Of a stretch of 64,000 nucleotides of DNA, positions 15,971-19,438 are shown one piece after another. The translations under genes and the position numbers were made by a program. Numbering within the stretch: the first letter of the stretch is position 1; each line of letters starts with the position of its first letter. Source of the DNA: Hyphococcus luteus (GTDB lineage: Bacteria; Pseudomonadota; Alphaproteobacteria; Caulobacterales; Parvularculaceae). Under the pieces are notes generated by a model. The model had not been told where the DNA came from, made no database searches, and saw nothing but the letters and a program-made list of their open reading frames with translations. Location of the stretch: positions 310,001 to 374,000 of the forward strand of contig NZ_PJCH01000005.1 of assembly GCF_002943565.1 (NCBI RefSeq). Reading direction: 5' to 3'.

Positions 15971-17047
15971 CTACTTGCTCAATCCCGCCCACAGGCTCGG
16001 CTGGTCGGCGGCGTCGAAACCGTAATGCTCGAGCCAGCGCGCGTCGGCGGTGAAGAAATCCCTGAGATCGGGAATGCCGTATTTCAGCATGGCGAGGCGG
16101 TCGACGCCCACGCCGAAAGCAAAGCCCTGATATTCGTCGGGATCGAGACCGCAATTTTTGAGGACATTCGGGTGCACCATGCCGCAGCCGAGAATCTCCA
16201 TCCATTTCTCGCCCTGGCCGAAGCGCACCTCGTTGCCGACCCGCTCATATTGCACATCCATTTCCGCGGACGGCTCCGTGAACGGAAAGAAATGCGGGCG
16301 GAAGCGCGTCTTTACGTCGTCGAGCTCGAAGAAGGTTTTGACGAAGGCCTCGAGCACGCCTTTGAGGTGCCCCATATGGGTCTCCTTGTCGATCACAAGC
16401 CCTTCGACCTGATGGAACATCGGGGTGTGGGTCTGATCGCTGTCGCAGCGGAAGGTGCGGCCCGGAATGATGATCCGGATCGGCGGCTTCTGGGTCATCA
16501 TGGTGCGGATCTGCACCGGCGAAGTGTGCGTTCTTAGCAGCATGCGCTGCCCGTCTTCCTTCGGTTCGAAGAAAAACGTGTCGTGCATCTCGCGCGCCGG
16601 GTGGTCCGGCGGAAAGTTCAGCGCGGTGAAGTTATGGAAATCGTCTTCGATGTCCGGGCCTTCGGCGACGTCGAAGCCCATGGCGGAAAAGATCGCGATG
16701 ATTTCTTCCGTCACCTGGCTGACGGGATGAATCTTGCCTTTGGGCTCGGGACGCACCGGCAGGGTAACGTCGACTTTTTCAGAGGCGAGGCGCGCATCGA
16801 GCGCAGCCGCTTCAAGCTCGGCCTTCTTCGTCTCAATGGCCTCGGCGATACGGGTTTTAAGGCCGTTCAGCGCCGGACCCATTTCCTTGCGCTCTTCCGG
16901 GCTCATCTTGCCGAGCGTTTTCATCTTCTCGGAAACCGCGCCCTTCTTGCCGAGCGCGGAGACGCGCACCTCTTCCAGCGCCGCGCCCGTATCGGCGGCG
17001 CCTATCCTGGCGAGAAGGTCTGATTCGAGCTGTTCAATGTCGGACAT
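15971..17047 (-). CDS. pheS: Phenylalanyl-tRNA synthetase alpha subunit
   Basis: PheS holds the aminoacylation active site of the heterotetrameric PheRS. The 358-residue protein has an N-terminal coiled-coil that binds tRNA (about 1-90) and the class II catalytic core. Motif 2 is seen in [18 protein letters not shown], and motif 3 in the [14 protein letters not shown] stretch near the end. The start codon is 29 bp after a transcription attenuator, and a Phe-rich leader peptide lies upstream, so expression is probably controlled by Phe-tRNA charging. The downstream gene is not pheT but a small membrane protein. Confidence 0.97.
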
Positions 17048-17075
17048 CGCGTCCGGTCTCCATGCTTTTAAGACG

Positions 17076-17106
17076 TAAAAAAAGCGCCACCCTTCGGATG
17101 ACGCTT
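17076..17106 (-). terminator. Attenuator terminator of the pheS operon leader
   Basis: On the minus strand, AAGCGTCATCC and GGGTGGCGCTT form an 11-bp stem (two G-U pairs) around the loop GAA, directly followed by a run of seven T. It lies between the leader peptide and pheS. The 5' arm includes GTCATCC (17096-17102), which can instead pair with GGGTGAC (17126-17132) just after the leader stop codon, giving a competing antiterminator. This is the layout of a ribosome-controlled attenuator. Confidence 0.85.
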
Positions 17107-17134
17107 ACCGGCAGATACCGCTTCGGTCACCCGT

Positions 17135-17173
17135 TCAATCAACGCTCCTAAAAAAGAACTCGAAAAAGGTCAC
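17135..17173 (-). CDS. Phe-rich leader peptide of the pheST operon
   Basis: A 12-codon ORF (GTG start, TGA stop) encodes VTFFEFFFRSVD, with five Phe codons out of twelve (TTT TTC, then TTC TTT TTT). A GGAG lies 11 nt before the GTG, a rather long spacing; the frame is also open upstream and includes two more Phe codons, so the true start may lie further 5'. The peptide ends 2 nt before the segment that can form the antiterminator. By analogy with the E. coli pheM leader, stalling at Phe codons when charged tRNA-Phe is scarce would favour pheST transcription. Too short for ordinary gene finding. Confidence 0.75.
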   Translation of the reverse strand: MTFFEFFFRSVD

Positions 17174-17218
17174 GGGGCGTGCGGCTCCAATGAAAAAATC
17201 CTGCCCCTTGAATATAAA

Positions 17219-17247
17219 GAGCGGGCCCTCTTGTCGAGGGCCCGCTC
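17219..17247 (-). terminator. Strong hairpin upstream of the Phe leader peptide
   Basis: A perfect 12-bp inverted repeat, GAGCGGGCCCTC and its complement, encloses a 5-base loop; on the minus strand it is followed by TTTATATT. It may end transcripts coming from the ribosomal protein genes, or be a structured part of the pheST leader. Direction is uncertain because the tail is only moderately T-rich. Confidence 0.6.
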
Positions 17248-17277
17248 CCCATATCGCCTGTCCGGTGAGAGAAGGCG

Positions 17278-17421
17278 TTAAGCCCCCAAGGGCTTTTTTT
17301 GGACCGAGGCCAGCTGCTCCGGCATGGCCTCGTTGTCAGCATAGGCCGTGAGCATCGGTGAGGCGATCTTTTTAACCGTCCCGGCGACGGTGGAGTCGAT
17401 GCAGGTTCTCAGCGCGCTCAA
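17278..17421 (-). CDS. Possible small ORF between rplT and the Phe leader
   Basis: A 47-codon frame starts at a TTG and includes an internal ATG at 17355; the product reads like coding sequence, for example TVKKIASPMLTAYADNEAMP, with GC-rich third positions as in neighbouring genes. No family is recognised. Its start sits just after the rplT terminator hairpin and it ends before the 17219-17247 hairpin, which is a tidy position for a small independent gene or for the decayed 3' end of a lost gene. No good ribosome binding site was found, so this is tentative. Together with the leader elements it accounts for the 433-bp interval between pheS and rplT. Confidence 0.3.
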   Translation of the reverse strand: MSALRTCIDSTVAGTVKKIASPMLTAYADNEAMPEQLASVQKKPLGA

Positions 17422-17424
17422 ATA

Positions 17425-17453
17425 GAAAGGCGCTTGATTTTCAAGCGCCTTTC
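17425..17453 (-). terminator. Terminator of the rpmI-rplT operon
   Basis: A perfect 13-bp inverted repeat (GAAAGGCGCTTGA and complement) with a 3-base loop lies 27 bp after the rplT stop. The following sequence on the minus strand is TATTTGA, so the T-tract is weak, but the stem is strong. Confidence 0.65.
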
Positions 17454-17480
17454 AGGATCGTTAAACACCCGTAACAGTTA

Positions 17481-17837
17481 TTAGGCGAGGGCCGCTTTCG
17501 CTTTTTCCGCCAACGCCTTAAAGGCCTCCGGCTCTTTTACCGCAATGTCGGCCAGCACCTTGCGGTCGACCTCGACGCCGGCCTTGGTGAGGCCGTCAAT
17601 GAAGCGGGCATAGGTGAAATCAAGCTCGCGGCAGGCGGCGTTGATGCGCTGGATCCAGAGCGAGCGGAAATTGCGCTTGCGCGCCCGGCGGTCGCGATAG
17701 GCGTACTGGCCGGCCTTCTCCACCGCCTGATTGGCGACGCGGAAGGTGTTTTTGCGGCGGCCGTAATAGCCTTTGGCTTTGCCGATGATTTTCTTATGGC
17801 GGGCGTGAGCGGTGACGCCTCTTTTCACACGTGACAT
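17481..17837 (-). CDS. rplT: 50S ribosomal protein L20
   Basis: L20 binds 23S rRNA early in assembly of the large subunit. The 118-residue, strongly basic protein begins [19 protein letters not shown] and contains [19 protein letters not shown] and [20 protein letters not shown], both hallmark stretches. Length is typical. It lies 12 bp downstream of rpmI in the standard rpmI-rplT pairing; infC, often the first gene of this operon, is not adjacent here. In E. coli and Bacillus L20 represses its own operon through an mRNA fold; no such fold was checked here. Confidence 0.98.
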
Positions 17838-17849
17838 GGGGCGGTCTCC

Positions 17850-18050
17850 TTAGCGGTTATAGGGCATGTATTTCTTGACGATTTTCGCGTCGGGATCGGA
17901 CAGCACGTCCATGCCGCGGTTCTGGCGGATTTGCTTGGGCGTGCGCTTGATCATGCCGTGACGTTTGCCGGAGACGCCGGCTTTGACCTTGCCGGTGGCG
18001 GTCATTTTGAAGCGCTTTTTCGCGCCTGATTTGGTCTTCAGTTTGGGCAT
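17850..18050 (-). CDS. rpmI: 50S ribosomal protein L35
   Basis: This is the small (66-residue) basic ribosomal protein L35. It starts [20 protein letters not shown], the family signature, and ends with the typical [13 protein letters not shown]. The frame is open further upstream, but the conserved start is the ATG at 18050, giving the normal length. It is followed 12 bp later by rplT. The 193 bp between this start and the next small gene holds no other gene and should contain the promoter. Confidence 0.97.
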
Positions 18051-18243
18051 TTTGCTTTTCCTTAAAGGGTCCTTTCGGACGCGCAACAAGACCGCCAAGG
18101 CATGCCAAAAGGCCCGGCGACCGGTGAGAAGGCGCGGGTTATAGCCGAAGAGCCCCATCTTTCAAGGGCGAAACGCCGAAAATCGGGGATTTTTCCCCGC
18201 GCCGTCGGCCCCCGGGCCGCTCCTTTTTGACCGGCCCCCTTCG

Positions 18244-18345
18244 CTAGCGCAGCAAAAGCAGGACGCCCGCGGCAAGGCCCAGGACGGAAACAGCGAAAAG
18301 CGCTTTCCGGGCAGGCGGCGGCAGACGCCGGACAATGTGAATCAT
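18244..18345 (-). CDS. 33-residue single-pass membrane protein
   Basis: A small ORF encodes MIHIVRRLPPPARKALFAV followed by a hydrophobic stretch of about 14 residues ending LLLLR. The ATG at 18345 is preceded by a good ribosome binding site (GGAGG, 5 nt spacing), which is the main evidence; longer starts exist but lack such a site. A positively charged N-terminus and C-terminal hydrophobic tail suggest a one-segment membrane microprotein. A short hairpin (18184-18199, CGGGGA and TCCCCG arms) with a following ATTTT may serve as its terminator. No family recognised. Confidence 0.5.
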   Translation of the reverse strand: MIHIVRRLPPPARKALFAVSVLGLAAGVLLLLR

Positions 18346-18475
18346 GCAACCCTCCATCACAAAGTCGAGAATACGCAGGATCGGCCACCCCGCAATGCTT
18401 GAGGCCCTAGTGACTTGGCCTCTCATCGCCATATGATGCGCATGGGCGCGCGATTTTCCTGTCTAGGGAGGGCGG

Positions 18476-19438
18476 ATGAAATCGTTGCTTTTTCGGCTGG
18501 CCGGCGCGGCCGGCGCATGGGGTCTTCTTTCATGCTTGTCGATCGCGATGGCGGCTTTGCCGCCGCGCGGCGTCGAGCCTGTGGCGGAAATTCCCTACCG
18601 CATCGCCTATCAGGGCTGGTTCACCGTAGAAGCGAGCGTCAACGGAACCGGCCCGCACGACTTCATCGTCGATTCCGGCGCCACCATCACCTCCGTCTTC
18701 GCCAATCTCGCCGCGCAGCAGGAGATGCCGCCCGTCGCCGGAAAGAGCATTCAGATTCTCGGACTCACGGGCGCGCAGGAGCTGCCGGCCTATATGCTCG
18801 GCGACATAGATTTCAACGGCGTCGCGATGACCGACCATTTAGGCGTGGTCCTGCCGGACTGGGCGCCGCCGAACACGCCGCCGCAAGGGGTCATGGGGCT
18901 TGACCTTCTGACGCGCTACACGGTGCATGTGGACACCAAAGACAAGGTCATCCGGTTTTACGATCCGTCCGTCCGGCTCGAAAAGCGCCGCCGCTGGGTC
19001 AGAACGAGGATGAAGTTGTTCAAGGCCCAAGGCTCGCCTTCGAAACTTTACACCGTTGAAGTCAAGGTCAACGCGGCGCGCATTCCTTGCATTCTCGATC
19101 TCGGCGCCTCCGGCACGATCTTCAACATGGAGGCCTTGCGCAACATGATGACGGGCGTCAGGCGCAGCCCCGCCTCGGGGCCGGGTTTTACGACCGGCTC
19201 GCGCGTCAAAGATGTTTTCGATGTGAGCGACCGCGCGCAGCCCGTTCGAATTCAGCGTTTGAAAATCGGCGGCGCGACCTGGCACAACAGGATCTTCGCC
19301 GTATATGACGCGCCCATCTTCGCCGATCTCGGCTATGAGCGAAAACCGTTTTGCCTCATCGGCGCCGATATGTTCTCCAGGCGCAGCATCCTGTTCGATT
19401 TCAAGAGAGAAAAGCTCTATATAGGCCCCGAACGCTAA
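18476..19438 (+). CDS. Exported retropepsin-like aspartyl protease family protein
   Basis: The 320-residue protein has a signal peptide (about residues 1-26, cleavage after AMA) and then two domains of retropepsin type in one chain. The first carries the catalytic-type motif FIVDSGAT with Asp66; the second has CILDLGASG with Asp208. Single-domain viral and bacterial retropepsins dimerise to build the active site, so a tandem copy could form an internal pseudo-dimer, although the second motif is DLGAS rather than D-S/T-G. A good Shine-Dalgarno (AGGGAGG) precedes the ATG. It is followed 37 bp later by the amidohydrolase in the same direction. Confidence 0.78.
   Translation: MKSLLFRLAGAAGAWGLLSCLSIAMAALPPRGVEPVAEIPYRIAYQGWFTVEASVNGTGPHDFIVDSGATITSVFANLAAQQEMPPVAGKSIQILGLTGAQELPAYMLGDIDFNGVAMTDHLGVVLPDWAPPNTPPQGVMGLDLLTRYTVHVDTKDKVIRFYDPSVRLEKRRRWVRTRMKLFKAQGSPSKLYTVEVKVNAARIPCILDLGASGTIFNMEALRNMMTGVRRSPASGPGFTTGSRVKDVFDVSDRAQPVRIQRLKIGGATWHNRIFAVYDAPIFADLGYERKPFCLIGADMFSRRSILFDFKREKLYIGPER

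Follow-up and report, generated by a model that had tools for sequence, protein, structure and literature searches.

The gene pheS, which encodes the phenylalanyl-tRNA synthetase alpha subunit, is preceded in the window, the 64,000-nucleotide stretch of DNA analysed here from a Parvularculaceae genome of 4.92 Mb, by a short ORF rich in Phe codons and a strong hairpin, and the question that this locus raises is whether the two act together as a switch that answers to phenylalanine. Passages in PMC5371410 and PMC9291695 describe E. coli pheM as the attenuator of pheST. The preferred reading of the locus, with a probability of about 85%, is that a ribosome-mediated transcription attenuator of the pheM-pheST type precedes pheS.

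All features of the locus lie on the minus strand, where rplT (17837-17481) is followed by its own terminator, a decayed small gene, a GC-rich hairpin, the 12-codon ORF, the motif GGGTGAC, a terminator and pheS (15971..17047 in the ORF list, with its ATG at 17047). The small gene is represented in the window by a remnant at 17412-17281, a 44-residue piece of which 20 of 36 residues match the end of the G042 protein; in G042 and G019 the interval from rplT to the leader holds the gene as an open frame of 104-105 codons, and no Pfam match was found for it. The GC-rich hairpin (GGAGCGGGCCCTCGACAAGAGGGCCCGCTCT, 17218..17248), read by eye in eight of the nine genomes with a leader and lost in G040, falls within the span of the first-pass annotation and is an element separate from the attenuator; it likely terminates the decayed gene before it, and the leader promoter appears to lie inside it. 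Between pheS and pheT (15963-14721) are small ORFs, one with a DUF302 domain and one without a Pfam match, together with a short frame read by eye.

The terminator before pheS consists of AAGCGTCATCC-GAA-GGGTGGCGCTT (17106-17082) and the T tract TTTTT (17077..17081, from the sequence and the terminator scan). Its 5' arm, region 3 (17096..17106), includes GTCATCC (17102-17096), which doubles as the antiterminator 3' arm, and its 3' arm is region 4 (17082..17092, from the scan and the alignment). Region 2, GGGTGAC (17126..17132), is the antiterminator 5' arm; that it can pair with GTCATCC had been claimed in the first-pass annotation, and all 7 positions do pair, one of them as G-U. Its distances were also recovered, namely 29 nt from the terminator to pheS (T tract to 17077, ATG at 17047) and 2 nt from the leader stop to GGGTGAC at 17132-17126, as was the minus-strand frame of 12 codons, five of them Phe, at 17173-17135. 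This leader ORF begins with GTG, encodes MTFFEFFFRSVD and ends in TGA, and a possible ribosome-binding site, GGAG (17185..17188), lies 11 nt 5' of the GTG, at a spacing equal to that in G042. Four hairpins, including the one before pheS, were returned by the terminator scan against a shuffle mean of 1.2, and the overall folding energy of the leader was not above chance (z = -0.01).

According to the proposed mechanism, RNA polymerase would start upstream of the 12-codon ORF. With abundant Phe-tRNA, the ribosome would reach the TGA and cover GGGTGAC, and because region 2 is then covered, GTCATCC would join the terminator and transcription would end before pheS. With little charged Phe-tRNA available, the ribosome would stall in the TTC-TTT-TTT run, the last codon of which begins 20 nt before GGGTGAC, and region 2, left free, would pair with region 3 upon its emergence, so that pheS would be transcribed. 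A region 1:2 protector in the leader class was not clearly better than shuffled sequence, as 17 to 134 of 200 shuffles were as good, and leader RNA without a ribosome should therefore mostly read through. Not every attenuator has a region 1:2 protector pairing, and for this reason the assignment as an attenuator is kept.

A Phe-rich leader ORF before pheS is present in 9 of 62 genomes of the family, so that in nine genomes an ORF rich in Phe codons precedes the gene of the Phe-specific synthetase, a match of cognate codon and gene. The peptides, of 12 to 31 codons, differ in sequence: MTFFEFFFRSVD in the window and MTFFKFFFRSVD, MPKFEFFFGSAH, MSIFLFFFRSAD, MTRQPASKGQDLFDGTARGRAAGFFFFRNAF, MNIAGRHFRECFTRAVGFFGSLP, MRNTAVMPFRAFTRFKGFFTGAP, MKTVFVDPFRAFVVFGGFFTGTP and MKNVAVFPFRAFAQFEGLFTGAL in the others. 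In all nine leaders the Phe run terminates at the fifth codon before TGA (a single Phe in MKNVAVFPFRAFAQFEGLFTGAL; one further Phe at codon -1 of G036 was set aside by the script that scored the position of the run), the TGA lies exactly 2 nt 5' of GGRTGAC, and the spacing from the fifth-from-stop Phe codon to region 2 is 20 nt. Phe accounts for 44 of 171 codons in the nine leaders, against a background of 54 of 1278 in pheS, pheT and rplT of the window. The Phe codons vary synonymously, with TTT-TTC in G040 versus TTC-TTT in G037 and G038; the codon pair at -6/-5 is TTT-TTT, TTC-TTT, TTT-TTC or CTC-TTT across the genomes, and within the two leader families three all-Phe columns differ by TTT/TTC only. 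Outside the Phe run, 7 of 13 and 11 of 24 codon columns of the two families are nonsynonymous, with Phe gained or lost in 1 and 3 of these, and a three-base insert occurs within the leader frame of G040 (alignment A2).

Folding of the leader RNA in both states, as the first-pass annotation had suggested, was simulated on nascent RNA in which region 4 had not yet been made and the ribosome was assumed to cover 12 nt from the first base of the A-site codon. With the ribosome stalled at the last Phe of the run, the predicted probability of the antiterminator is 0.9-1.0 in all nine leaders; with the ribosome at the leader stop, it is 0 in all nine, and with no ribosome it is 0.61-1.0 in eight and 0.05 in G022. 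When the full-length RNA is folded to equilibrium with the ribosome still stalled, the terminator is favoured in seven of nine leaders, in which the antiterminator reaches at most 0.27, and only in G036 and G040 is the antiterminator at least 0.5, so that the model needs co-transcriptional kinetics. By a nearly identical procedure, the E. coli pheM control gave 0 free, 0.95-0.96 stalled and 0.26 at the stop. The stall-and-stop logic that had been put forward for this locus is supported, as a modelled behaviour, by the geometry of the nine genomes, the fold states and the pheM control.

Transcription of the leader would require a promoter upstream of the ORF, for which conservation points to a candidate. 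A putative -35-like CTCGAC (17233..17238) is accompanied by nine bases, CCCTCGACA, that are invariant in the nine leader genomes, and a putative -10-like TATATT (17211..17216) lies 16 nt past it, which gives the consensus CTCGAC-N16-TWTAWN across the nine leaders; TTTWTA (17218-17213), in the form TTTATA or TTTTTA, is found exactly 13 nt past CCCTCGACA in all nine. In G040 the surrounding hairpin is lost, as judged by eye, and both boxes are kept, and it is therefore suggested that the promoter is embedded in the upstream hairpin, so that 17248-17211 would form a promoter folded into a terminator, with CCCTCGACA on the loop side and TTTWTA in the tail. A sigma-70 pattern scan reported no promoter, either at the proposed site or between the terminator and pheS. 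Such a conserved pair upstream of the ORF would fit the attenuator model.

The switch itself is more widespread than the Phe leader. Relatives of pheS are present in 57 of the 62 family genomes, and the stretch before pheS was read in 54 of these 57, the window included, as were the sequence from rplT to pheS in G025 and G060 and the flank of G036 towards rplT. A covariance model built from 24 aligned copies of the switch (R1) matches 34 of the 62 genomes at E <= 0.01 and does so strongly (E < 1e-6) in 31; the weak matches in G059, G011 and G025 (E 5e-5 to 2.5e-3) were not used, and the other 28 genomes have no match at E <= 0.01. Among 200 genomes drawn from the order, R1 matches 21 at E <= 1e-5, all of them in three genera of Parvularculaceae. 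An rplT found by search lies upstream of 30 of the 31 strong matches; for the last, G033, the search gave no rplT, but the 3' end of the gene can be read where the contig begins. Regions 2:3 and 3:4, mutually exclusive pairings with a shared arm, are kept in the 24 aligned genomes, and in the nine leaders their predicted energies are balanced, at -14.4 to -18.0 kcal/mol for the terminator and -15.2 to -16.9 kcal/mol for the antiterminator. The compensatory changes that the first-pass annotation had looked to are found in the terminator, where 98.5% of cells are paired and 2 of 11 pairs (9 cells) show double changes, but covariation is weak in the antiterminator, with a double change in 1 of 11 pairs (1 cell); its core of 8 pairs, with 189 of 192 cells paired, is mostly invariant, the arms being conserved rather than covarying.

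Among the 31 strong-switch genomes, 22 keep the complementarity and have no Phe leader. Conservation of Phe codons in relatives, on which the earlier proposal was to be judged, therefore holds in part: nine genomes retain both the codons, in a fixed geometry, and the complementarity, 22 retain the complementarity only, and many have neither, from which it follows that the Phe sensor is not universal even within the genus. In 21 leaderless genomes no ORF of 5-40 codons with at least two Phe lies between the rplT stop and region 3, a count that starts behind, and so misses, a frame in G020 (locus L010), where by eye an 11-codon frame containing two Phe starts at a TTG that overlaps the stop of rplT and ends 4 nt before GGGTGACG; in G033, read apart, two such frames run through the terminator itself. 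Several leaderless genomes have other sequence, partly coding, between the switch and pheS. Similar palindromic inserts (ATCCTGAGG ... GGATG) occur in the gap between rplT and the switch in G026, G021 and G003, with the switch arms kept, and by eye they look like a dispersed repeat.

These leaderless forms are the ground for the alternative that survives best, in which the switch answers to general translation or to translation of rplT, rather than to Phe, and the Phe ORF is a later addition. An arm complementary to region 2 lies right behind the rplT stop, so that a ribosome there could choose between region 1:2 and region 2:3: in 14 of the 21 leaderless genomes this competing arm begins 11-15 nt after the first base of the stop, in G044, where arms 1 to 4 have changed together, it lies at 41 nt (2 of 1000 shuffles), and in these 15 no more than 31 of 1000 shuffles do as well. 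In the other six the arm fails the 95% shuffle level, with 57 (G021), 81 (G018), 87 (G023), 127 (G009), 267 (G032) and 585 (G003) of 1000 shuffles as good; all these counts are from 1000 shuffles, as counts from 200 looked better. Moreover, a simulated ribosome at the rplT stop caused no consistent change in the predicted fold of the leaderless genomes, tandem duplicated hairpins would yield equal complementarity, and the alternative concerns the leaderless class only, the switch of the window starting 344 nt past an rplT that has its own terminator. Control by rplT or general translation is accordingly considered rather unlikely as an account of this locus. A doubtful but related proposal, of similarly low probability, is that one switch carries two interchangeable sensors in closely related genera, either a Phe leader with its own promoter (nine genomes) or the end of rplT (14 of 21).

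It could also be argued that the hairpin is only a constitutive terminator of the upstream gene and that the Phe-rich ORF arose by chance in a T-rich stretch, given that the hairpin is kept without a Phe leader in 22 family genomes and that 30 of 100 genomes of other families have a terminator-like hairpin within 250 nt upstream of pheS. This reading is improbable, because the geometry of stop and Phe run is fixed in all nine leaders while the Phe codons change synonymously, and because chance seldom reproduces the arrangement: among dinucleotide shuffles of the upstream stretch, a Phe-rich ORF of 8-35 codons (4 or more Phe, making up 17% or more) that ends 0-5 nt before a 7-bp complement of the terminator 5' arm appeared in 29 of 20000 for the window and in 0, 0, 0 and 1 of 5000 for the leaders of G019, G036, G038 and G040. 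The lack of a reported promoter between the terminator and pheS also speaks against it, with the reservation that the same scan misses the proposed upstream promoter. That the leader ORF chiefly aids translation of pheS through ribosome reinitiation, a role proposed for leader genes in the relevant part of PMC4833913, is the least probable explanation, since the leader stop lies 87 nt before pheS with the terminator in between and the same passages associate short distances with reinitiation and longer ones with attenuation.

The attenuator reading, which is preferred over these alternatives, has a close counterpart in E. coli pheM-pheST(-ihfA) (RF01859), with which the window shares the site between rplT and pheS, a leader peptide with a Phe run, a TGA with a copy of the terminator 3' arm close behind it, and the response in the fold-state script. 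The statement of the first-pass annotation that the logic is known from pheM-pheST and appears here with another peptide is borne out by the like response of the pheM control. The differences lie in the peptide, in the distance from stop to region 2 (4 nt there, 2 nt in the window), in the conserved promoter-like pair of its own that the window leader has, and in the lack of a supported region 1:2 protector in the window leader. The Rfam model RF01859 (Phe_leader) gave no match at E <= 1 in 16000-18500 of the window and none at E <= 0.1 in five of the other eight leader genomes, while the E. coli control scored 75 bits. Matches to sX6 and HgcC in 16000-18500 were below their gathering scores and, like a BASRCI414 match in locus L151 (E 0.026), were taken as chance.

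Leader-peptide attenuation has been described in an alphaproteobacterium for Sinorhizobium meliloti trpL (rnTrpL), according to parts of PMC10117765, where the leader is a Trp leader before trpE on a leaderless mRNA, whereas the window ORF has an upstream GGAG; the portions of that paper on S. meliloti small proteins that were consulted make no mention of pheS. Synthetase genes are likewise under leader-peptide attenuation in Actinobacteria (trpS and leuS, in sections of PMC1262725), a different phylum with different amino acids, and the same sections name pheST as a gammaproteobacterial example. The main text of a broad terminator survey (PMC2965389) does not contain pheS, pheT or phenylalan. 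No alphaproteobacterial pheS attenuator was recognisable by title or abstract start in the literature covered, to which Vitreschak 2004, Lopatovskaya 2010 and Panina 2001 do not belong; the attenuator is not claimed as unpublished, and these three may be the likeliest earlier predictors.

As outgroup, 112 other alphaproteobacterial genomes with pheS, each of another family, were used, with about 500 nt upstream read for the 100 of the 112 that were most similar. Six of these 100 have a Phe-rich ORF, none with a terminator within 120 nt behind it, and the same scan recovers all nine leaders and E. coli pheM. By a looser rule, six of 62 named loci outside the family have a Phe-rich short ORF, none preceding a terminator. 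In G295 (L209), an ORF encoding VTNEEFFFFPSGAILV lies 278-227 nt before pheS without a terminator within 120 nt behind it. Since no such leader was found in the 100 genomes of other families, an origin separate from E. coli pheM is likely as judged from sequence, with outgroups drawn from Alphaproteobacteria only. A single origin of the nine leaders was also considered, and one clade is rejected by the pheS and pheT DNA trees (AU p 0.00235 and 1.2e-72), in which many forks are open; the pheS DNA tree does not include G052, G049, G025 and G021, and pheT of G043 is under half-length. On the starred branches two changes are required by the pheS DNA tree, against a single one by each of the other three trees. 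The history of the leaders may accordingly have involved gain, loss or transfer.

In G019 a gene of peptidase family S58 (L137 1124-2293) is located between the Phe attenuator and pheS and would therefore fall under Phe control; by eye, similar gene ends stand before pheS in G029, G023, G001 and G048. Along with the weak antiterminator covariation, the free change of the peptides outside the Phe run and the lack of a leader in 22 of 31 strong-switch genomes, the intervening gene of G019 speaks against the preferred reading.

Taken as a whole, the attenuator before pheS is well supported, ordinary in kind and unexpected in place, with a curious leaderless sister form. If the two-sensor proposal is true, the conserved switch would have acquired, lost or exchanged its Phe sensor as a module, and in the leaderless version the supply of synthetase would be coupled to translation of a ribosomal protein. 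That an alphaproteobacterial genus has a Phe leader peptide ahead of pheS, at the E. coli position, is likely a case of convergent evolution, and the relatives with and without the leader on one switch would offer a natural test of how a sensor is gained and disappears.
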